Source: an uncultured Pseudomonadota bacterium (GTDB lineage Bacteria > Pseudomonadota > Gammaproteobacteria > Ga0077536). Taken from it: a stretch of 38,352 bases of DNA. The position numbers and the translations under genes were made by a program. Below, piece after piece: positions 25,723-38,352 of this stretch. The DNA lies in NCBI GenBank assembly GCA_913047675.1, contig CAJWTO010000009.1, forward strand, positions 1 through 38,352, read 5' to 3'. The notes under the pieces are model-generated. The model was not told the origin of the DNA. It saw only the letters and a list, made by a program, of their open reading frames with translations, and did not search any database. How positions within the stretch are numbered: position 1 is the stretch's first letter; every line of letters begins with the position of its first letter.

Positions 25723-27363
25723 ATGTTTGGTTTGATGATGGACACGCCTCTGTTGATAAAAAATATTGCATTACATGCTGAGCGTAATCATGCGCGACAG
25801 GAGATAGTGTCAGTCACTTCTGATCTTGGGGTCCATCGCTATACATTTAGTGAAGCCATATCACGCTCTCGAAAAGTCACGAATGTTTTAGATAAGTTAG
25901 GGTGCTCGCCGGATGCGCGAATAGCGACTTTAGCTTGGAATGACTTTAGGCATCTGGAGCTGTATTACGGGGTGTCATGCAGTGGACGCGTGCTACATAC
26001 AATAAATCCGAGACTTTTTGCTGATCAGCTGATCTATATCATTAACCATTCTGAAGATGAAATAATATTTTTTGATACTGCATTTACGGAGTTACTTGAG
26101 TCGATTGCCGATAGATGTCCAACTGTTAAGGCTTATGTGGCAATGACGGCTAAGGATCACATGCCAACTAGTTCACTACCGAACATGTTGTGTTACGAAG
26201 AACTATTACATGTTGAATCATCTGAGTGTGATTGGCCTGACTTTGACGAGAGGACCGCGAGTTGCTTGTGCTATACCTCAGGGACTACAGGTAATCCTAA
26301 AGGAGTCCTTTACAGTCATCGAAGCACCGTAATTCATTCTTACGCGCTTTGTATGCCTGATGCTGCATCACTGTCAGCCCACGATGCAGTCCTGACCGTA
26401 GTCCCGATGTTTCACGTCAATGCTTGGGGTTACCCCTATTCGAGCCTTATGGTTGGAAGTAAGTTAGTGTTTCCGGGGCCAAAACTGGGTGATGCGGAAA
26501 CTCTCGTTAGTTTAATTAATGACGAAGGGGTTACAATCGCAGGAGGAGTCCCCACGGTGTGGTTACCATTACTCGAACACCTTAAAAAAACCGGACAGGG
26601 AGTTCCTACTTTAAATCGTACAGTTATTGGTGGTTCGGCCTGTCCTTTATCGATGATAGAAGAGTTTCGAGATGACTTCGGCGTGCAGGTCCTGCATGGT
26701 TGGGGAATGACAGAAATGAGTCCCCTTGGGACTGTCAATACGCATAACCCTCAGACGATTGAATATACTGGCGAGGCTATGCAGGAGCATTTGGTCAAAC
26801 AGGGTAGGGGACTGCCAGGAGTGGAGTTAAAGATAACTGACGAACAGGGGCAAGATCTCCCTTGGGACGGTGAAGCTTTCGGAACGTTGAAAGTCAGAGG
26901 GCCTTGGGTCTGCTCGGACTATTACAAATTATCAACCGCCTCATCTGCTCATGGTAGCGACGGCTGGTTTGATACTGGAGATGTTGCTAGCATTGATGCC
27001 AACGGCTACATGAAAATAACTGATCGAACCAAAGACGTTATTAAGTCAGGTGGTGAATGGATAAGTTCTATAGATTTAGAAAATGTGGCCATGTCTTTTC
27101 CCGGTGTCCGCGAGTGTGCCGTTGTGGGGATGCCTCACTCTAAGTGGCAGGAGCGTCCGCTGTTAGTTATTGTTAATAAAGATAACGATAACCCGATTGA
27201 AGTTTCCGAGGTTTTACGCTTTTTCGAAGGAAAGGTCGCAAAGTGGTGGATCCCGAGTGATGCGGTTTTTGTTGGAGAGCTGCCTCACACTGCGACAGGC
27301 AAGGTGAGTAAGTTAACTTTACGTGAAGAGTTGAAAGGTTATCAATTTCCGGATGACGGCTAG
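25723..27363 (+). CDS. Fatty acyl/short-to-long-chain acyl-CoA ligase (ANL superfamily)
   Basis: A 546-residue adenylate-forming enzyme activating a carboxylic acid to its CoA thioester with ATP. Motifs: [13 protein letters not shown] near 186-198 (P-loop), '[11 protein letters not shown]' near 228-238, GWGMTEMSP near 326-334, WFDTGDVA near 415-422, [15 protein letters not shown] near 432-446 and the C-terminal TGKVSK with the catalytic Lys. The N-terminus ([12 protein letters not shown]) and '[15 protein letters not shown]' block resemble the group containing DmdB-like 3-methylmercaptopropionyl-CoA ligases and medium/long-chain ligases, so substrate is open. The thiolase gene follows on the same strand. 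Confidence 0.9.
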
Positions 27364-27495: not shown

Positions 27496-28677
27496 ATGTC
27501 TGAATCAACGATTATCGCGGGACTCGCTAGAACACCGATGGGGGGTATGCAGGGTGACCTTTCCGAAGTTTCGGCGCCGGTCCTGGGCGAAACTGCCATA
27601 CGCGGAGCATTGAGTCGCGCGGGTGTTTCTCCGGATCAAGTTGACGAAACAATAATGGGGTGTGTGTTGCCTGGAGGACTAGGACAAGCTCCGGCGAGAC
27701 AAGCTTCTATCGGCGCAGGTATTCCTGAATCGACACCGTGCAGCACGGTTAACAAAATGTGCGGATCGGGGATGAAAACGGTAATGATGGCTCACGATGC
27801 TATTAACGCCGGCTCTGCCGAAGTTGTTGTCGCTGGGGGAATGGAAAGTATGACCAATGCACCGTACATTTTGCCTAAAGTACGTAGCGGAATGCGGCTT
27901 GGTCATGGGGAAGTTTTGGACCATATGTTTGTTGATGGTCTTGAGGACGCATTCGATAAAGGGAGGTTGATGGGTAGCTTTGCTGAAGACTGCGCTAGCA
28001 AGTACGACTTTTCGAGAGAAGCGCAAGATGCCTACGCTATCGAGTCATTGAAAAGAGCTAAAAATGCAATTGATAAGGGTTTGTTCACTGAAGAGATAGA
28101 ACCTGTGAAAATTTCTACACGAAAGGGTGATTTCGTTATTGATACTGATGAGCAGCCTGGTAAAGCGCAGCTGGACAAAATTCCAAATTTGAGACCTGCT
28201 TTTGCGAAAGACGGTACTGTAACGGCTGCAAATTCTAGCTCTATTTCTGATGGTGCTGCCGCTGTCGTTTTGTGTTCTGAATCCAAGGCTAGTGAACTAG
28301 GTCTGAAGCCTGTGGCACGTATTTTAGGTCACAGCTCTCACGCGCAGGCGCCTGGATGGTTTACTACTGCTCCTGTTGATGCGATTAAAAAGTTAATGAA
28401 GAAGCTGGAGTGGACTGTGCAGGATGTTGATCTTTTTGAGGTAAACGAAGCGTTTGCAGTTGTACCCATGGCGGCGATGCACGATGTAGGTATACCTCAT
28501 GAAAAATTAAATGTTCGAGGCGGAGCTTGCGCGTTAGGTCATCCTGTTGGGGCCTCTGGCGCACGTATTATTGTCACACTAGCTCAAGCACTGAAAGATT
28601 CAGGTGGCAAAAAAGGCGTAGCCAGTTTGTGTATAGGTGGTGGAGAAGCGACTGCAGTAGCGATCGAATTAGCATAA
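27496..28677 (+). CDS. Acetyl-CoA C-acyltransferase (thiolase)
   Basis: A 393-residue thiolase catalysing reversible condensation or thiolysis of 3-ketoacyl-CoA. The nucleophile Cys89 is in NKMCGSGMK, the C-terminal active site is NEAFAVVP near 315-322, GGACALGHPVGASGAR with the catalytic His near 350-365, and LCIGGGEA with the second Cys near 383. The length and 'CSTVNKMCGSG' pattern suit the acetyl-CoA acetyltransferase/degradative short-chain group. The ATG has a clear GAGGAG site at 27482-27487. It lies 132 bases after the acyl-CoA ligase gene, a pairing expected for acyl breakdown. Confidence 0.93.
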   Translation: MSESTIIAGLARTPMGGMQGDLSEVSAPVLGETAIRGALSRAGVSPDQVDETIMGCVLPGGLGQAPARQASIGAGIPESTPCSTVNKMCGSGMKTVMMAHDAINAGSAEVVVAGGMESMTNAPYILPKVRSGMRLGHGEVLDHMFVDGLEDAFDKGRLMGSFAEDCASKYDFSREAQDAYAIESLKRAKNAIDKGLFTEEIEPVKISTRKGDFVIDTDEQPGKAQLDKIPNLRPAFAKDGTVTAANSSSISDGAAAVVLCSESKASELGLKPVARILGHSSHAQAPGWFTTAPVDAIKKLMKKLEWTVQDVDLFEVNEAFAVVPMAAMHDVGIPHEKLNVRGGACALGHPVGASGARIIVTLAQALKDSGGKKGVASLCIGGGEATAVAIELA

Positions 28678-29345: not shown

Positions 29346-30599
29346 TTATTTAAGCAAAGGCACTCTGGAAACCGACTCATTATCTACCAAGATAGCTGTG
29401 CCCCTTCCTCCGAGCACTAACAATTTTCCATTAGGCAGTTCAACCGGGGTTTTGATCCAAGATAGGAGCTTTAACTCAGTTCTGTCTGCAAGCGTCCATT
29501 CGTCGTCCTTTAATGTTCCAATAAGGCCAACTGCGCCTGAAATCACCGGAGTCCCGTCTTGAGTTAGAATAACTCCGAATATACCCTCACGTCCTGGTTT
29601 GGGATTGTCTTCCCAAGTTTCGCCGTTATCTAGGCTCTTTTGATTTACCCCTGCGGCCCCGGTGAGCCAAGCTTCATTCCCTCGTTGATAGCCAGCCATC
29701 CAGTATGCAGGCTCAGGTTCTCTGGGCACGATTTCAGTGTCGCGTCTTACCCAAGTTTCGCCACCATCATCACTTTGTAAAATCATACCAAATTCACCCG
29801 CGAGAGTGACTCTTCCTTGATTCAGCATTACGACATTCCAAGAAACGTCTCCTTTGCGGAAAGGAGGACCTGGTGCGAACTTAGTCGCGACTGTGGGGGC
29901 GGGTTCCATATCGAGCTCTTTTTGAAACTGAATGAATCCCTCATCAGGGTATAAAATATAATCTTCTTCCTCAACAGCGGGCTGCCCCCCAACACTAGCG
30001 GTAAACTTCAAAGTGTCGGTATCAAGGTTAGAAACTCCTAGATACCAATCAGCGGGGAAACTTCCAGGGAATTCTATGAGAGGGAGAGTAACTTCATCGA
30101 TCACGACTTCTTCGTAGTTAGCCATGTCTGTGCTGCGATATATCAAACCTCGCCCACCTACGACCCAAATACTGTTGCCGTCCGACGCAATATCAAGAAT
30201 CGGTTCCTCATACTCCGATAGCTGTGCGATCTCCGATACATTTTCTCCGTCAAATTTATATAGCATTCCAGTAGAACTTCCGAGGAGAGCTTCTTGATCT
30301 GAAATTGCGTGCAGACTGGTAAAGTCAACGTTCGGTACATTTTCGACAAGGGTCAGTAGGGCAGCGCTATCGGTCAATTCGACCAATCCGACCGTACCGT
30401 GCTGACCAGCGACTAGGATTCGCCCCATACCATTTAGGTAGTCTGCATCCATTACGTCGATGAATGTTGTGCTTGGCGCAGTTCCAGCATTAGTTGAACC
30501 AGCTCCATTAGACGCCGAGTCTTGCGCCAGAGTGTTAGCCCCGATATAACTTAATATTACGCAGGTAAATATTTGTGCGAATTTTGATTTACAGATCAT
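29346..30599 (-). CDS. Secreted YCF48/Hcf136-like beta-propeller protein
   Basis: A 417-residue exported protein. A signal peptide covers about residues 1-25 (ending TLA-Q), then repeated propeller blades with Asp-box-like turns such as SDDGGETWVRR and LDNGETWED, and repeated 'G..G.I'/'G..G.IGTL' strands; this is the YCF48/BNR layout known from photosystem II assembly factors. In non-photosynthetic gammaproteobacteria such proteins recur beside DUF1302, DUF1329 and RND genes, as here. The ATG at 30599 has an AGGAAA site about 7 bases upstream. The probable role is a periplasmic scaffold or chaperone of the neighbouring envelope system. Confidence 0.8.
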   Translation of the reverse strand: MICKSKFAQIFTCVILSYIGANTLAQDSASNGAGSTNAGTAPSTTFIDVMDADYLNGMGRILVAGQHGTVGLVELTDSAALLTLVENVPNVDFTSLHAISDQEALLGSSTGMLYKFDGENVSEIAQLSEYEEPILDIASDGNSIWVVGGRGLIYRSTDMANYEEVVIDEVTLPLIEFPGSFPADWYLGVSNLDTDTLKFTASVGGQPAVEEEDYILYPDEGFIQFQKELDMEPAPTVATKFAPGPPFRKGDVSWNVVMLNQGRVTLAGEFGMILQSDDGGETWVRRDTEIVPREPEPAYWMAGYQRGNEAWLTGAAGVNQKSLDNGETWEDNPKPGREGIFGVILTQDGTPVISGAVGLIGTLKDDEWTLADRTELKLLSWIKTPVELPNGKLLVLGGRGTAILVDNESVSRVPLLK

Positions 30600-30684
30600 G
30601 AAGAGTTTCCTGTTTTTATCCCAAAACGATAAAGTAAATTTTCGAAATGCTCACTGCCCGTAAGCTCCCGATATTCTTAAGAAA

Positions 30685-30706
30685 GGCCTATCGTGCCCTT
30701 CAGGCC
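30685..30706 (-). terminator. Weak hairpin downstream of the flavin reductase gene
   Basis: Reading the minus strand, GGCCT (30706-30702) pairs with AGGCC (30689-30685), followed by TTTCTT. The stem is only five base pairs with a 12-base loop, so it is at best a weak terminator between the flavin reductase and YCF48-like genes. Confidence 0.2.
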
Positions 30707-30743
30707 GTTAAAGTATCAGCAATTGCCATCGTCATACAACAGT

Positions 30744-31232
30744 TTAACGTTTAAATTCTTGATAGCCTCCGCGATAGTATAGTAGAGGGTCGTCGTCAGC
30801 ATCGTTGCTGGCCCAGCCTTTAACTAGGCCACATACAATTTGGTGATCACCACCCTCATATACATTATAGATCGAGCATTCTATCGATAAAAGTGCTCCG
30901 GAGATTAACGGAATTCCGAATTCTCCTAAGCACCAATCGATGTTGTCGAACTTGTCGACGCCTTTTTTAGCAAAGTTGTTAGAAATAGATTGTTGCGATG
31001 CGCACAGCATATTTATCCCAAATATCTGGGTTTCAAGCATGGGCCCTAAGGTATCAGAATTATTGTCTACACAGACAAGGAACATCGGAGGCTTCAGCGA
31101 GAGAGAGCTTACCGCGTTCATGGTCAGTCCAAAAGGGTTGCCGGCTTTGTCGATAGTTGTGACGATGGATACACCAGAAGCCCACAGCCCGCAGGCTTTT
31201 CTAAAGGCATCTGAATCAAATTTGTCGTTCAT
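30744..31232 (-). CDS. Flavin reductase domain protein (FMN-binding split barrel)
   Basis: A protein of about 162 residues from ATG 31232 (ATG 31262 would add ten). It matches the flavin reductase-like family: 'FRKACGLWASGVSIVTT', 'GLTMNAVSSLSLKPPMFLVCVD', 'FGINMLCASQQSISNNFAKK', 'IECSIYNVYEGGDHQIVCGLV' and the closing 'LLYYRGGYQEF'. Members supply reduced FMN/FAD to two-component monooxygenases. No monooxygenase gene is in the window, so the partner is unknown; the position next to the YCF48/RND/DUF1302 block makes a link to hydrophobic substrate oxidation possible. Confidence 0.88.
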   Translation of the reverse strand: MNDKFDSDAFRKACGLWASGVSIVTTIDKAGNPFGLTMNAVSSLSLKPPMFLVCVDNNSDTLGPMLETQIFGINMLCASQQSISNNFAKKGVDKFDNIDWCLGEFGIPLISGALLSIECSIYNVYEGGDHQIVCGLVKGWASNDADDDPLLYYRGGYQEFKR

Positions 31233-31541
31233 AGTTAATAACTTTGTAAATTGAGAGAGCATGTAATGTGCAACAAAAATACAGGTAGGTGCAAGTGAAA
31301 CAAATTTACCCAGGCCTAGTTTGTTAGTATGGCCCAGTTCCTCGCTGCCTCACTCGATTAATGGTACCAGAATAGTCGTGCCATGTAATTCTTAAACAAT
31401 TTAGCAATACGTTAGGTCTAAAAATTTCGATGCCAGGTGAACCAAATCTGGGGAGCTAGCAACGGTTTAGGGCGGGCTTTTAACCTCTCTATTATGTGTG
31501 GTTTAAAAGCAACGCAATTAATGTTTACCTTTTACCACAAA

Positions 31542-31561
31542 CGTGACAAAATCACGCGTGA
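31542..31561. promoter_or_regulatory. Overlapping inverted repeats CGTGA-N5-TCACGCGTGA
   Basis: Three half-sites CGTGA/TCACG/CGTGA occur in 20 bases: the first two form a 5-5-5 inverted repeat and the last two a perfect 10-bp palindrome. The element lies about 110 bases before the RND start codon. Such spaced symmetric half-sites suit a dimeric regulator, possibly in two alternative registers; this is inferred. Confidence 0.4.
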
Positions 31562-31657
31562 TGAATTAATTAACGCACAGATAATCTGTCGTTTGAGTTA
31601 AAAAGTTTGGTTATTTTAAAGCCACATCCGAATTTGTGGTCGATTAATATAATGTGC

Positions 31658-31665
31658 GGGAGGAG
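31658..31665 (+). promoter_or_regulatory. Ribosome binding site that fixes a TTG start for the RND gene
   Basis: GGGAGGAG ends six bases before TTG 31672. No ATG or GTG in frame is nearby, and translation from this TTG gives a normal RND N-terminus, so the rare start codon is well supported. Confidence 0.7.
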
Positions 31666-31671
31666 TAGACA

Positions 31672-34068
31672 TTGTCTGAGAACGGATTAACGAGAGGTCA
31701 GAGGATAGCGAACTGGATGTTGGATAACCGTATGACTACGGTACTTGGCATCATTATCCCCACACTACTGTTAGCTTGGTCATTGCCATCAATTGAGGTT
31801 TACTCGCGGTTTGCGGACCTGCTTCCTGCGAAGCACGATTACATCAAAAATTACAATCGAATGAAGCAAACGTTTGGCGGAGCCAACGTTGTCACCATGT
31901 CAATTGAGGTCGAGGGCGACCAGGATATTTTTACTAACGAGACGCTGAATCAAATCAAGTATGTGACCGATGAGGTCGATATGATTAAGGGTGTGAACCA
32001 TTATCAGGTCGCCAGTATCGCTCACCCCAAGATACGCAGGATTAGGACAACCGCTGGTGGACTGATCAAGTCTGAACCAGTTCTCCCTCGAGACATCCCC
32101 ACTGAGCCGGACAAGCTGAAGCAACTCCGAGAAGAATCTTTTAATAACGACATTGTATATGGAACTTACATATCAACAGATGGTAAAGCTGCCCTCATCC
32201 TCGCGGGGTTCGATGAAGAACGGCTAGACTACAACACAATTTTTACTCGCCTAAAAGAGCTGAAGGTAGAAATAGAAGAATCTGGGAACACCAAGTTGTA
32301 TATAGCTGGTGAGCCCATGCTGAAAGGCTGGATATACTACCATTCTGCAGAGCTAACGCTGATATTTGGTATTACTTTCGCCGTCATGGTGCTTTTGCTG
32401 TACCTGCATTTTGGTTCTCTTGCCGGGGTGTTCGTTCCACTATTGGGCACGGGTATGGCCTGTGTATGGGGCCTAGGCTTCGTTGGATGGATGGATTTCA
32501 ATTTAGATCCGCTTATTCTTGTTGTGCCTATCTTAATTTCAGCACGTACAGCCAGTCACTGTGTCCAAATGATGGAACGATTCCATGATGAGATCCGTAA
32601 GGGGGAATCTCGGGATTCTGCCGTCAGAACTAGTATGGGGGAATTGCTAGTTCCCGCCTCGATCGCTATATTTACCGACGCAGCGGGACTCTATGTGCTT
32701 ACCGTTTCCTCTATTCCGATTATTGCTAAGTTAGGTTATTTCTGTAGCTTTTGGTCCTTGAGTAATCTAGTTACGGTAACTGTCTTGGTGCCGATAGTGC
32801 TTTCCTACTTGCCGTCTCCTAAGGTAAGTCAAGACGAAGATAAGCATGTTTATTCAATGATTATGAGTAAGTGGTCTAACTTTTTAGTTTCTGATCGCGC
32901 GCCCAAGCCTATTTTTGGTCTAGCGCTAGTGTTGATAGGATTTGCGGTGTTTTACGCAAAAGATATGGTTGTTGGTGAGAATATGCCTGGTTCGCCAATA
33001 TTGTTTCCAGATTCAGAATATAACGTGGCAGCGAAAGCGATAGCTGATAAATTCGCGGGTGCGAATCAGTTCAGTATTTACTTTGAAGCTGATGAAGCCC
33101 ACAAGATGAAAGATCCAGAAGTAGTGGCGGTGATGGAGAAGTTTGGACTGTACATGGCCGATACTTTGGGCTACGGGGGGACTAGAACGATCCCTCACCT
33201 AGTTCGGTCGATAAACCGACTCTATCATTACGATGATCCTCGATGGTCGCTAGTTCCATCGAGCCAGCGTGATATTGGTAACACCTTGTTTATGTACGAA
33301 GCGGGCGCTGCGATACCTGGCGTCATTCTAGAGTATATGGATCTAGAAGGGCGAACCGCTAACTTCGTCGTATTTTACAAGGATGCTACTGGGCCAACAG
33401 TTACAGAAGCTGTCATTAAAGCGAAGGAATTTTTGGCTGAGCATCCGATGGACGGAGTAACTCCGAGGTTTGCCGGGGGAATTATAGGAACTACTGCTGC
33501 GGGGAACGAAGAAGTAGAGCAATCGGAACTAAATCAGACTATCCTGATTATGGTTGTGGTGATGGCTTCAGTGATAGCTACGTATAGATCAATCACGGCT
33601 GCACTTCTTGTGTTTGTGGTGCTCGCGATGGCAGTAGTCATTAATAGAGCGTACATGGGATTTAGAGGTATCGGCTTAAACATTAATACCTTGCCAGTAA
33701 CGGCGGTTGGTATTGGTATCGGGGTTGATTACGCAATTTATATGCTTGACAGGATCCGTGAGGAAGTACGTCATAGATCAATTGACGATGCAGTTAAAGT
33801 TGCGCTATCAACAACGGGTGCAGCCGTATTGTTTACTGCAGTGACGGTTGTGGCCGGCATAGCGTACTGGATATTTGGTTCATCGCTCCGATTTAACAGT
33901 GAGATGGCAATGCTATTATCACTGCTAATGGTGAGCAATATGATCGGGGCGATTTCTCTGTTGCCTCTGTTGGTTAAGGTGTTTAAACCAAGCTTTGTGA
34001 TGAAATCACAGGTGGATGAGTCATCCACTGGCGACGATTCTACAGAGCCTGCAAACACTGCCGCTTAG
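31672..34068 (+). CDS. RND/MMPL family exporter
   Basis: A 798-residue inner-membrane protein of the RND superfamily (HAE3/MMPL-like 'predicted exporter' group). It has one N-terminal helix near 18-35, a periplasmic loop, a helix cluster near 225-375, another loop (about 430-620), and a second cluster near 620-780, i.e. the duplicated half-structure. The second half has the typical 'GIGIGVDYAIYMLDRIREE' helix-4-like segment near 681-700 and 'STTGAAVLFTAVTVVAG'. HAE3 proteins move lipids, hopanoids, siderophores or other hydrophobic molecules toward the outer membrane. Adjacent DUF1302 and DUF1329 genes support an envelope role. The TTG start is discussed separately. Confidence 0.92.
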   Translation: MSENGLTRGQRIANWMLDNRMTTVLGIIIPTLLLAWSLPSIEVYSRFADLLPAKHDYIKNYNRMKQTFGGANVVTMSIEVEGDQDIFTNETLNQIKYVTDEVDMIKGVNHYQVASIAHPKIRRIRTTAGGLIKSEPVLPRDIPTEPDKLKQLREESFNNDIVYGTYISTDGKAALILAGFDEERLDYNTIFTRLKELKVEIEESGNTKLYIAGEPMLKGWIYYHSAELTLIFGITFAVMVLLLYLHFGSLAGVFVPLLGTGMACVWGLGFVGWMDFNLDPLILVVPILISARTASHCVQMMERFHDEIRKGESRDSAVRTSMGELLVPASIAIFTDAAGLYVLTVSSIPIIAKLGYFCSFWSLSNLVTVTVLVPIVLSYLPSPKVSQDEDKHVYSMIMSKWSNFLVSDRAPKPIFGLALVLIGFAVFYAKDMVVGENMPGSPILFPDSEYNVAAKAIADKFAGANQFSIYFEADEAHKMKDPEVVAVMEKFGLYMADTLGYGGTRTIPHLVRSINRLYHYDDPRWSLVPSSQRDIGNTLFMYEAGAAIPGVILEYMDLEGRTANFVVFYKDATGPTVTEAVIKAKEFLAEHPMDGVTPRFAGGIIGTTAAGNEEVEQSELNQTILIMVVVMASVIATYRSITAALLVFVVLAMAVVINRAYMGFRGIGLNINTLPVTAVGIGIGVDYAIYMLDRIREEVRHRSIDDAVKVALSTTGAAVLFTAVTVVAGIAYWIFGSSLRFNSEMAMLLSLLMVSNMIGAISLLPLLVKVFKPSFVMKSQVDESSTGDDSTEPANTAA

Positions 34069-34115
34069 CAGATAAACTGAGAAATCGTGAATAGAAAGCT
34101 TTAAAACATGTTAAA

Positions 34116-34126
34116 TGTGGTTTAAA
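34116..34126. repeat. Second copy of TGTGGTTTAAA, upstream of the DUF1302 gene
   Basis: The same 11-base word is found at 31497-31507 ahead of the RND gene and here 78 bases before the DUF1302 start codon, in the same orientation. Followed by GTGGTAA. It may be a shared regulator site for the two transcription units. Confidence 0.35.
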
Positions 34127-34193
34127 GTGGTAAAAAAGGGAGCTGTCGGGTGTCCGTTAGGATAGTCGAAAGCTAAACAATAAGAGGGGACAC

Positions 34194-36680
34194 ATGGGAG
34201 ATTTAACCATGAGACACTTAAAAGGCACTTTTAAAGTAGCTGCATTTGCGTTGGTACTGGCATTATTTGCTGGCCAGTCGCAAGCCCGCATAACAGTCGA
34301 CGCTTTTGGCGGCGAACTGGAAGTGGAAGGCTTTTTGAAGAGTGAGGTTCGTTCACGAGTATTGAACGGTAAGACTTATCTAGGCCAATGGATTAATCAG
34401 TTTCAAGTCGAAGCTGCATTAAACTATGTGGATGTCGGTATATTTGACGAATTAACATTCGTAGCGATAGCTCGACCTGAGTACGATATTGTGCAAGACA
34501 TGGGTGACCTGTCTAGCAACCATATCGGTGAAGGTACCACGGGCGTGTCCGTAAGTGACCGAGCAACATTCAATGAGCATAACGACCGGTTAGGTTGGGG
34601 CGGATTCGAATTTATCGGATTCGGTAAAACCACTACTGGTGGTATAGGTCAGCTACAGCGGCACGGTCAGAAAAATGATGATTGGTTTGCTACGAACTTT
34701 GAGGTTGCGTTTGGTACAGATGCGAATCTTACTAAAATTACCAACTCTGGTGTTTATGCACCATTAGACGCCAACGCAGGCGCTCTGTATCAAGGTGGTG
34801 GATTTCCACTCGTAGTTCAGAAATCATCTAACTTAAATCTTGACTGTAAAGGTTGTACTGATTTAAACATCGACAATATTGATGTCGCTACTGGTAACAC
34901 CGATTCCAATGGTCGACTGTATCCATTCCGCGAATTATACGCGGATGCGATTATAGGTGACTTTTGGATAAGATTAGGTAAGCAGCAGATTGTTTGGGGT
35001 AAAACTGACTTTTTCCGATTGCAGGATTTAATCAACCCGGTCGATTACGGGCGTCACTTTTTCTTCGACTCTTTTGAAGACATACGTATTCCACAGTGGA
35101 TGGCATCTATCCAGTGGAAAGCGGGATCCATCGGTCCTCTTACGGATAACGCAATACAAGTTGTTTGGAACTTCGACGAGTTTCAAGGCATAGGTCTCGG
35201 TAACCCATCGCAATTTTGGGCGCACCCGTTTTCAAAGGATATTAGTACATTTGCAATATATAACACCTACTTCTCTCCTGAGCCCTGTATGGCAGGACAG
35301 ACCATGGATATGGACTACTCGGCAAATGGTGGGCAAGGAACCTATGCTGGTAGAGCTGCAATTGACACTACTAAGCTTCGAGCTGAAGATCGCTGTGGAT
35401 ATTACGGTCCTAATGACAAGCGAACTCCTTCTGGGTTCGGTCAACCGGTTGGCCTAAGTGCGAACCTAAGACCTGATTGGGATATTAAAAATACTGAAGC
35501 AGGTTTCAGATGGGAATTCCGTCTAGCCGATTTCAGGTTTGCGGTATCGCACTGGTACGGTTGGAATGATGTGCCTGTCTTCAAGTTCCATTCAGTTAAC
35601 CTACCGACAAGACACTTGACGGCTGCCGGTATCGCGGCAAACGCGCCTACTGACGTCCTAATTGGTGACTTGGCGTGGGCTCGTTCAATAAACTCCACTA
35701 CTTCCGGAGTAGCAGGAGGTGCTGACTACTCAACAGGTGATCTGTTGGCGTTAGCTCAAACTGAAGCATCAACAAACAGCACTGCTAGTTTGGGAACCGG
35801 CACAGGTGGTTACAACGACCCGATAATCGTAACTGATCCGCTAAACGCGGCGCACATCCTGAATCAATACGCAACTTCGTCTGACATGAGAGCTGCGGCA
35901 GGAGCGGCGATCACCAATGGTCACTTTTCTAACCTTTGGGCGGCACTAGACGAAACATACTTCGGTGCGGGTTCAAACTGGCAGAATTGTGGAGCTAACG
36001 GTGGCGTGTTCTGTAGTCCTCTAGCAGGTGGGCAGACATCAATGGTCTATAAGCAGGCTCATACAGTCGGCTTAGCGATGGACTATTTTGAGTCATATTC
36101 CGGTGTTGTAATGCGTATTGAGTCGTCTTGGACATTTGATGAGCTATATAACAACACCATGCGATCTGACTGGGTTGACGAAGGAGACGTTATGCGTTTC
36201 TCACTCGGCTTTGACAGACCGACATTTATACCATTCTTGAACAAAGATCGTACGTTCTTCTTGTCATTGCAGATTTTTGATACCTGGTATCTAGATCATG
36301 AAGGTGACAAGAACACTGGTATGTTCGTAGATGAGCACAACTGGATAACTACTTTCTTCTTTATCGGTAACTATATGCGCGATAAAGTGAAACCAATCGG
36401 TTTCTATGTTTGGGAAGAAGCATCTAACTCACATGTTGCCGGTTTCAATGTTGAGTGGTTGATTGACAATCATTGGTCAATTAAATCTGGTTTCCACCTA
36501 ATTTGGGGTGGTGACAGAAACACTACACATGACACAGGACCATTCACAAACTACATCACTGAAGGCGCAAATGGCCTACAGAATCCTTTCGTAACATCAG
36601 TCTTCGGACCAGGACGACAGGGTATTGGTAGTGTGAGAAACTATGACGAAGTTACCTTTGAGCTGAAATACCAGTTCTAA
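34194..36680 (+). CDS. DUF1302 family outer-membrane beta-barrel protein
   Basis: An 828-residue exported protein. A signal peptide follows a basic start and ends near SQA-R (about residue 32). The rest is rich in alternating aromatic strands and ends with the barrel-type closing strand 'VTFELKYQF' (terminal Phe), as for outer-membrane proteins. Matching DUF1302 blocks include 'EGFLKSEVRSRV', 'FWIRLGKQQIVWGKTDFFRLQDLINPVDY' (in two parts near 251-280) and 'DNHWSIKSGFHLIWGGD'. It carries a large loop at about 465-615 and cysteine pairs (C218/C221 and others) that suggest disulfides in external loops. ATG 34194 and ATG 34209 both have usable ribosome sites. A terminator follows. Confidence 0.9.
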   Translation: MGDLTMRHLKGTFKVAAFALVLALFAGQSQARITVDAFGGELEVEGFLKSEVRSRVLNGKTYLGQWINQFQVEAALNYVDVGIFDELTFVAIARPEYDIVQDMGDLSSNHIGEGTTGVSVSDRATFNEHNDRLGWGGFEFIGFGKTTTGGIGQLQRHGQKNDDWFATNFEVAFGTDANLTKITNSGVYAPLDANAGALYQGGGFPLVVQKSSNLNLDCKGCTDLNIDNIDVATGNTDSNGRLYPFRELYADAIIGDFWIRLGKQQIVWGKTDFFRLQDLINPVDYGRHFFFDSFEDIRIPQWMASIQWKAGSIGPLTDNAIQVVWNFDEFQGIGLGNPSQFWAHPFSKDISTFAIYNTYFSPEPCMAGQTMDMDYSANGGQGTYAGRAAIDTTKLRAEDRCGYYGPNDKRTPSGFGQPVGLSANLRPDWDIKNTEAGFRWEFRLADFRFAVSHWYGWNDVPVFKFHSVNLPTRHLTAAGIAANAPTDVLIGDLAWARSINSTTSGVAGGADYSTGDLLALAQTEASTNSTASLGTGTGGYNDPIIVTDPLNAAHILNQYATSSDMRAAAGAAITNGHFSNLWAALDETYFGAGSNWQNCGANGGVFCSPLAGGQTSMVYKQAHTVGLAMDYFESYSGVVMRIESSWTFDELYNNTMRSDWVDEGDVMRFSLGFDRPTFIPFLNKDRTFFLSLQIFDTWYLDHEGDKNTGMFVDEHNWITTFFFIGNYMRDKVKPIGFYVWEEASNSHVAGFNVEWLIDNHWSIKSGFHLIWGGDRNTTHDTGPFTNYITEGANGLQNPFVTSVFGPGRQGIGSVRNYDEVTFELKYQF

Positions 36681-36709
36681 TATCACTCGTCTAAGTTGAT
36701 AAAATTAAG

Positions 36710-36742
36710 GGCGGAAGGCTAACACCTTCCGCCTTTTTTTTT
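36710..36742 (+). terminator. Rho-independent terminator after the DUF1302 gene
   Basis: A 9-bp perfect stem GGCGGAAGG / CCTTCCGCC (36710-36718 with 36725-36733), a six-base loop, then nine T (36734-36742). It ends DUF1302 transcription 30 bases after the stop, so the HEAT-repeat and DUF1329 genes need readthrough or their own promoter. Confidence 0.93.
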
Positions 36743-36814
36743 GTGTTAGTATTGAGCTATTCACCATACGTCGGTCGTATCTATAGTGTGCCCACGGTAA
36801 TTAAGGAAATATTA

Positions 36815-37987
36815 ATGTCGACGAAGTTAATCTTCAAACTACTGGCTGCTATTTTATTGGCCAGCGTGTTTATACCGGTCAATGCAGCATTGGAGGCTGG
36901 TGAGGCGAAGCTGATAGTTCGAGAAGCAATCCAGGTGGCAAAAGAATTACGAGCGAGTGAAAGCTACTACGACCAGTATGCTGGCGCAGGCATATTAGTA
37001 GATATAGGAGACAAAGATTCGCTCCAATTTCTAGTGGATGGTCTCGCAGATAATGATTGGGTTCTAATGAGGAGCGCAATTGACACGTTGTTGACAGTTC
37101 GGCATCCCTATGGTCTCGACGTGCTCTATCGATATGCTGAGCAAACGACAGATGCAATATTCATGAAATTTCTATCTGAGTCATTGGCAAGCCGACCGAG
37201 GGATGACCTTTCCGAATTTTTAATAAGATTAGTAGAGTCAGATGACGAATGGGTTAAAAAACACGCGATGCAGTCTCTGGCATCTAGTGAATATCCTGGT
37301 AAAGAGCGTCTAATGACTAATCTGGGAAATGATTACAATCAGGATCCATTGACGCGGGCGTATGGCTACTATGGTCTCATCGGGACGGAGTCCGAAAGTT
37401 ATGCTGTAGGGGAATTACTTTCCATTACGGATAATTGGGGCGTCGATGCTTTAGAGGTGCTTGCGGTAGCGTTGGGGCAGCACGACTCGCCTGAAACCCG
37501 GTCGCGGTTGAAAGAATTAAGGGCAGCCACTACCTATAAAGTCCAAATAGCGGCAATGGCGAGCCAAGCGGGGTTCGGAAATGAGGAAGCGACACAAACT
37601 TTAATATCCATTATCGCAAATGGTAAAGGTCTCGATCCGTCAGTCGCGGCGGCTAGTCTGCGAAGAATGAACCCGGAGTCAGTTAGTTCAATTACCGCAG
37701 AGCTTTTGCAGTGTTGTGAATTAACATCTGATACGGGTACCCGTCTTCTTGAATCATGGGAAAATATAGATGCGGATCCGAGTGCATTGTATAAATGGGG
37801 GTTCAATCACAAGAATCCTGACATAAAAATGCAGACAGTGTGGCTCGCGGGAGTCAGAGGAGACGGTGAATACGCCACTGCGATAGCAGACATGCTGGAT
37901 GATAAAGATTCAGGAATAAGGGCTATGGCATCTTGGGCTATCATACGTTTATATGGTGAAAAGTACGCACCAAGCCTGTCTGTTTAG
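36815..37987 (+). CDS. Periplasmic HEAT-repeat protein
   Basis: A 390-residue exported protein from ATG 36815 (ribosome site AAGGA at 36803-36807); the longer open frame beginning at 36743 starts inside the terminator and is unlikely. Residues 1-24 form a signal peptide (ending NA-ALEAG). The body is a series of paired helices with the HEAT/PBS-lyase pattern 'LV.gL.D.DW.LMRSAIDTLLTVRHP', 'WVKKHAMQSLAS', 'ADMLDDKDSGIRAMASWAIIRL', suggesting a protein-binding solenoid. It is a likely scaffold for the neighbouring outer-membrane and RND proteins. No catalytic motif is seen. Confidence 0.75.
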   Translation: MSTKLIFKLLAAILLASVFIPVNAALEAGEAKLIVREAIQVAKELRASESYYDQYAGAGILVDIGDKDSLQFLVDGLADNDWVLMRSAIDTLLTVRHPYGLDVLYRYAEQTTDAIFMKFLSESLASRPRDDLSEFLIRLVESDDEWVKKHAMQSLASSEYPGKERLMTNLGNDYNQDPLTRAYGYYGLIGTESESYAVGELLSITDNWGVDALEVLAVALGQHDSPETRSRLKELRAATTYKVQIAAMASQAGFGNEEATQTLISIIANGKGLDPSVAAASLRRMNPESVSSITAELLQCCELTSDTGTRLLESWENIDADPSALYKWGFNHKNPDIKMQTVWLAGVRGDGEYATAIADMLDDKDSGIRAMASWAIIRLYGEKYAPSLSV

Positions 37988-38018
37988 TTCTATAGTTCTA
38001 TGAAAAGTTAGGGGCAAT

Positions 38019-38034
38019 AGCGTTAAATAACGCT
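38019..38034. promoter_or_regulatory. Inverted repeat AGCGTTA-AA-TAACGCT before the DUF1329 gene
   Basis: Seven-base perfect arms separated by two bases, 20 bases before the DUF1329 ATG and 31 bases after the HEAT-repeat stop. No T-run follows, so it is more likely an operator or an mRNA hairpin near the ribosome site than a terminator. Confidence 0.35.
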
Positions 38035-38054
38035 TATAAGGGCGTGGAAGTGAT

Positions 38055-38352
38055 ATGAAAAAATACGGTGTTACAAGATATTCTCATTGCATTAGGTTAC
38101 TTATCTTTGCAGTCTCTATGCTCAGTTTTGTAGCTGCTGCGGACGAGTTTACCTTCGATATTGAAAATGCGATGGAGCTTAGTCCGCCCGCGGGTATGGT
38201 AGTTACTGCAAGCAATCTTGAGCAGGTCCGCCAGCTTCTGGATGAAGATTTAGCAGGCCTAATCGAGAAGGGTTGGCTCACGCTAACTGTTGGAAAGCCT
38301 CAGTCCTTTAGACCTCACTCCAATTATATAGCAGCGACCGAACGACATCGAG
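38055..38352 (+). CDS. DUF1329 family protein, N-terminal part (cut by window edge)
   Basis: Translating from ATG 38055 (GGAAG site just upstream) gives 99 codons open to the window end. Residues 1-29 are a signal peptide (basic start, hydrophobic core, ending AA-AD). The following text contains the DUF1329 N-terminal pattern: a helix 'NLEQVRQLLDEDLAGLIEKGW', then 'VGKPQSFRPHSNYIAATER', matching the family's '..sF.lHp.YieAT' element. DUF1329 proteins are exported and belong to the LolA/LolB-like lipid-binding fold set; they usually neighbour DUF1302. The rest of the gene lies outside, so the family call rests on this short region and context. Confidence 0.7.
   Translation, partial: MKKYGVTRYSHCIRLLIFAVSMLSFVAAADEFTFDIENAMELSPPAGMVVTASNLEQVRQLLDEDLAGLIEKGWLTLTVGKPQSFRPHSNYIAATERHR

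Follow-up and report, generated by a model that had tools for sequence, protein, structure and literature searches.

Introduction

The tetrapartite RND (resistance-nodulation-cell division) system AmeABCD of Castellaniella defragrans is composed of a DUF1302 protein (AmeA), a DUF1329 protein (AmeB), a COG4447/YCF48-like protein (AmeC), and an HAE3 RND transporter (AmeD), the lineage of which is a distinct branch inside HAE3 (PMC6394551). Deletion of ameABCD decreases monoterpene tolerance and increases accumulation of Nile Red, and growth of the deletion strain with limonene is rescued by acetate (PMC6394551). We report here on a related block of six genes at positions 29346-38352 of a 38,352-nucleotide stretch of DNA (the window) from an uncultured gammaproteobacterium. 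It is quite probable that the block specifies AmeABCD-type, proton-driven transport of a hydrophobic catabolic compound across the envelope, and that this version of the system is peculiar to one family of uncultured Gammaproteobacteria.

Other gene sets of this kind have been described. A comparative study of Betaproteobacteria reported a COG4447-COG1033-PF07044-DUF1302 operon under AphS/AphT/AphR control, in which the same four families are given a proposed role against toxic aromatics or solvent stress; this operon is co-regulated with phenol degradation and lacks a HEAT gene (PMC6449761). Pseudomonas putida requires PP_0765, PP_0766, PP_2018, and PP_2019 (DUF1302, DUF1329, a periplasmic protein, and an RND protein) on Tween 20, and contacts among the proteins have been predicted; neither a HEAT protein nor a flavin reductase was reported (PMC10866462). 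The highly expressed 'Nanopod' cluster of a methanogenic benzene-degrading culture encodes DUF1329, YCF48-related, MMPL, and porin-like proteins, but it belongs to the Desulfobacterota, has a universal stress protein gene and is without HEAT (PMC13101534).

The four-gene core (YCF48-like, HAE3-type RND, DUF1302, and DUF1329) is thus already described, and the original prediction erred in calling it undescribed (PMC6394551, PMC6449761, PMC10866462, PMC13101534). Its view that the block links transport of a hydrophobic compound across the envelope to a degradation pathway is a good fit and is the reading already published for the core. Two elements are new here: an exported HEAT-repeat protein restricted to the family and the conserved division of the locus into separate transcription units.

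Results

A variant of the AmeABCD gene set

The window is the whole of contig C9 from assembly G000 (2.15 Mb in 138 contigs, 88% complete). Profile matches confirmed all six predicted families at their places in the block: YCF48-like, flavin reductase, RND/MMPL, DUF1302 barrel, HEAT, and DUF1329, the last being completed on contig C83 of the same assembly. The locus shares with AmeABCD the clustering of the same four families and their position beside catabolic genes (PMC6394551). However, the genes are contiguous in Castellaniella, whereas in the window the YCF48-like gene lies on the opposite strand with the flavin reductase gene, and a terminator and the HEAT gene are inserted between the barrel and DUF1329 genes. 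Because the cassette is interrupted in this way, we class the locus as an AmeABCD variant rather than as a plain member.

The AmeC counterpart (29346..30599, minus strand) is a YCF48-like (COG4447/BNR) protein with a Pfam PSII_BNR match of E 1.4e-7 and a signal-like N-terminus (MICKSKFAQIFTCVILSYIGANTLAQ) that predicts export; its gene is adjacent in relatives. The AmeD counterpart (31672..34068, plus strand, TTG start) is an HAE3-type RND/MMPL inner-membrane transporter by its PF03176 match (E 1.9e-36). HAE3 model TIGR00921 is its best NCBIfam model, with a score of 154.2 bits that falls below the curated cut-off of 351.9. A maximum-likelihood tree, with long branches flagged, placed the window RND and all of the cassette RNDs in a 100/100 clade of 19 rows, separate from four further RNDs encoded by the window's genome. 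The TM4 (transmembrane segment 4) motif SAR..SH is common to the window RND and the gammaproteobacterial cassette RNDs, and those four further RNDs differ there. The TM10 motif G(V/I)DY is common to the window RND (GVDY) and all cassette RNDs. A tripartite HAE1 pump of the AcrAB-TolC type was rejected: genes for a membrane fusion protein and a TolC-like channel are absent from the block, and the RND is MMPL/HAE3-like.

The AmeA counterpart (34194..36680, plus strand) is an 828-residue DUF1302 protein. It matched PF06980 with 42.4 bits against a gathering cut-off of 23.2 in the genome search, whereas hmmscan at E 0.01 gave no match, and its C-terminus, ..FELKYQF, is typical for outer-membrane barrels. 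A sequence search gave no relative in the PDB, and a fold search with the structural model found nothing at E 0.001. Its best-ranked hits short of that threshold were outer-membrane barrels (TonB receptors, LptD, FadL, and porins), and the model and fold search together hint at an outer-membrane barrel fold.

The AmeB counterpart, a LolA-like DUF1329 periplasmic protein, begins at an ATG and runs off the contig (38055..38352, plus strand). Its N-terminal 99 residues are 79% identical to residues 6-104 of a relative's DUF1329 protein. Contig C83 opens with an exact 55-base copy of the final bases of the window and completes the gene: the C83 part is 353 residues long, corresponds at 98% identity to residues 87-439 of the relative's DUF1329 and matches PF07044 with 172.9 bits, above the gathering cut-off (G000:C83:25-1044). 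The window's DUF1329 groups with those of the cassettes. An extra copy, DUF1329a, lies between the barrel and HEAT genes in genera g2, g3, and g5 (for example L099 8391-9761). DUF1329a was ruled out as a cassette-type DUF1329; its orthologues stand elsewhere in the window's genome (L059 and L060; 66-73% identity). About 12 DUF1329 genes are present in the 2.15-Mb genome (contigs C14, C20, C74, C83, C36, C125, C70, C2, C27, C15, C44, and C72), pointing to expansion of the family in a small genome. Some of these genes lie near luciferase-like monooxygenases.

Complete YCF48-RND-barrel-DUF1329 cassettes were found in four other gammaproteobacterial families, and in a fifth the cassette is cut by the contig edge before YCF48. 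The same cassette is found on plasmids of Aromatoleum aromaticum, Methylibium petroleiphilum, and Vibrio alfacsensis. Note that the cassette on the V. alfacsensis plasmid also has a flavin reductase gene as its neighbor (L155 545-1513) and that in another family the cassette RND gene is split into two open reading frames by mutation or sequencing error (L147 6088-8481).

An exported HEAT-repeat solenoid

Between the barrel and DUF1329 genes lies a gene for a 390-residue HEAT-repeat protein (36815..37987, plus strand). The open reading frame was listed from a GTG at 36743; the true start is likely the ATG at 36815, since an AAGGAA motif precedes it and a clear signal peptide (MSTKLIFKLLAAILLASVFIPVNA) begins there. 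The protein matches HEAT_2 (PF13646) with 72.1 bits (gathering cut-off 27.7, E 4.9e-20). AlphaFold2 gave a confident all-helical repeat model, an alpha-solenoid with a mean pLDDT (predicted local distance difference test) of 91 and a pTM (predicted template modeling score) of 0.86. Foldseek matches of this model in the PDB were generic alphaRep, HEAT, and armadillo solenoids, which tell of its predicted fold and not of its function. HEAT diverges faster than its neighbors: between the window and the same-genus locus L032, identity is 83-84% for HEAT, 95% for the barrel, and 99% for the RND protein. We found no published description of this protein, and no paper in the literature searched combines the terms 'HEAT repeat' and 'DUF1302'.

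Conservation of the block across an uncultured family

Profile searches covered 36 genomes from the family, and no second family was returned for its order. Conserved-neighborhood analysis had been named beforehand as a possible refutation of the original prediction, and the block withstood it: it is kept in 7 of the 10 genera, so the co-localization of its genes is far beyond chance. HEAT is present as a single copy per genome in 22 of the 36 genomes, distributed over 7 genera, at 34-83% identity to the window's protein, and all 22 genes sit within this block; one further genome has a 56-residue HEAT piece at a contig end. The gene order of the window and C83 together is repeated in a genome of the same genus (L032/L092).

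HEAT appears restricted to this family. A pattern scan of one genome each for 84,980 species gave 19 HEAT loci, and no group beyond the family turned up. In a profile search of 369 genomes sampled across the class, HEAT was absent from 365 genomes of other families, and the 3 matches were all family members. The window-type barrel is likewise restricted to the family, with remoter DUF1302 relatives elsewhere. Within the family, barrel and HEAT are present together or absent together, except where a contig ends inside or beside them. Of the 25 genomes that have HEAT or barrel, 23 also carry the RND subfamily (at least 62% identity), versus 2 of the 11 that have neither (Fisher p 2.8e-5, uncorrected for phylogeny).

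Genera differ in whether the gene of this RND subfamily is linked to the block or stands at another place, which resembles the distribution of the P. putida genes over two loci (PMC10866462). The RND genes apart from the block adjoin MFS, amidase, and AMP-binding genes with no evident envelope role, and they revealed no second cassette. In genus g6, tandem RND genes of the window's subfamily lie away from barrel and HEAT (L081 7771-10338 and 10479-12902; also L082). Record titles among the loci include the single-cell genome AG-390-I23, TMED69, and Lake Baikal and groundwater assemblies. Three metagenome-assembled genome records (L095, L098, and L104) are titled 'Klebsiella pneumoniae', but their contigs match family members and the titles look wrong.

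A conserved terminator separates barrel from HEAT

The gap between barrel and HEAT contains a strong intrinsic terminator (36707..36736, plus strand) composed of a 12-bp stem and a T tract, which begins 27 bases past the end of the barrel gene. The scan of the window gave 19 terminator-like sites versus a shuffle mean of 6.8, and this site has the longest stem among them. When all loci were scanned uniformly, 20 of the 22 had a terminator immediately before HEAT: 7 of 9 where the barrel gene precedes and 13 of 13 where a DUF1329 gene precedes. In the two loci missed by the scan, hairpins upstream of HEAT can be made out both by eye and in the fold. The position is kept, while the stem sequence varies among genera. 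The same scan gave no terminator between RND and barrel (0/9), HEAT and DUF1329 (0/21), or DUF1329 and hydrolase (0/12).

Given this conserved terminator directly upstream of HEAT, there seem to be at least three transcription units: flavin reductase-YCF48, RND-barrel, and HEAT-DUF1329-hydrolase-SDR (short-chain dehydrogenase/reductase). A single six-gene operon is ruled out by the two divergent strands and by the terminator between barrel and HEAT. The earlier picture of a single system of six genes is corrected accordingly.

Catabolic neighbors

The flavin reductase gene (30744..31262, minus strand) encodes an enzyme of the HsaB/HpaC type (PF01613, E 1.2e-39; NCBIfam HsaB 136.7 bits, under the cut-off of 230). 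A luciferase-like monooxygenase gene adjoins it in L097, L101, L102, and L106, although not in the window. Owing to this arrangement in several genera, the protein is probably the reductase of a two-component monooxygenase rather than an envelope component.

An esterase-type hydrolase gene and beta-oxidation genes flank the block. DUF1329 is followed on C83 by genes for an alpha/beta hydrolase and an SDR and, on the opposite strand, for MaoC, a cyclase, a CoA-transferase, an acyl-CoA dehydrogenase, and a second hydrolase. Upstream of the block on the plus strand lie genes for an acyl-CoA ligase (25723..27363), which is beside the block also in the same-genus loci L072-L074 and in L109, and for a thiolase (27496..28677), which is close to the block in several genera. 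A terpenoid, a cyclic ketone, or an ester would be a suitable substrate for a pathway of monooxygenation, ester hydrolysis, CoA activation, and beta-oxidation. The acyl-CoA ligase scored 800.7 against the cut-off of 822 for 3-methylthiopropionyl-CoA ligase, and a link to breakdown of dimethylsulfoniopropionate (DMSP) is possible.

Discussion

In the mechanism that we propose, the RND pump would handle the compound at the inner membrane, probably driven by protons via the conserved Asp-Tyr pair in TM10, and the YCF48-like protein would dock on the pump. The LolA-like DUF1329 protein would shield the compound across the periplasm, and the DUF1302 barrel would be the outer-membrane channel. The HEAT solenoid, apparently transcribed with DUF1329, is most likely a lineage-specific partner that docks or scaffolds that protein. 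Degradation of the compound would fall to the hydrolase, SDR, MaoC, CoA-transferase, acyl-CoA dehydrogenase, thiolase, and flavin reductase, the last acting with a luciferase-like monooxygenase.

Several points weigh against AmeABCD-type transport by this block. The functional data come from relatives outside the lineage. The barrel model, which shows many long strands, is of low confidence (pLDDT 52), and the RND tree contained neither AmeD nor the P. putida sequences. In several genera the RND gene stands elsewhere without the other parts. Moreover, HEAT need not be a pump subunit, because the terminator places it outside the predicted RND-barrel unit.

We infer both the direction and the substrate of transport, and export or tolerance is slightly favored over uptake. 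Uptake, a serious but lesser possibility, would differ in direction only: the barrel would admit a hydrophobic substrate such as an ester or terpenoid, DUF1329 would ferry it through the periplasm, and the RND protein would deliver it to the inner membrane for degradation. The inability of P. putida to do without its DUF1302, DUF1329, periplasmic protein, and RND genes on Tween 20 is a growth defect that suits this direction (PMC10866462), as do the flanking esterase-type hydrolase and beta-oxidation genes, whereas the increased dye accumulation, decreased tolerance, and acetate-rescued growth with limonene of the ameABCD deletion strain suit export (PMC6394551). Export of a lipid that builds an envelope component, as with HpnN (hopanoids) or MmpL3 (mycolates), rather than nutrient handling, seems very improbable. 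Although the window RND has weak sequence similarity to both proteins and some of the flanking enzymes could also serve biosynthesis, homologous cassettes lie within or close to gene clusters for the degradation of aromatics and terpenes, and the absence of barrel, HEAT, and the RND subfamily from the near-complete family genomes G005, G016, G017, and G035 argues against a basic envelope part.

The place of HEAT within AmeABCD-type transport admits more than one arrangement, and we infer both its role and complex formation. The protein could be a fifth subunit, located in the periplasm, where it would connect the DUF1302 barrel physically with DUF1329 and the RND pump as an adaptor that differs from the classical RND membrane fusion proteins; we put this forward only tentatively and consider it rather unlikely. 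It is similarly doubtful that HEAT serves the third unit (DUF1329, hydrolase, SDR) instead of the pump, for instance as a chaperone in the periplasm or as a scaffold that binds an enzyme or only DUF1329. The terminator that precedes HEAT in 20 or more of the 22 loci, and the lack of any in the scanned HEAT/DUF1329 and DUF1329/hydrolase gaps, fit such an assignment, but HEAT presence tracks the barrel across the family and the partner DUF1329 is of the pump-cassette type.

Bacteria that degrade hydrocarbons, terpenes, and aromatics repeatedly carry the RND/DUF1302/DUF1329/YCF48 set. In the family described here, a dedicated solenoid gene has been added between the barrel and DUF1329 genes, which hints at where a periplasmic interaction may occur, and the separate transcription units suggest that the pump and the periplasmic carrier are regulated apart.

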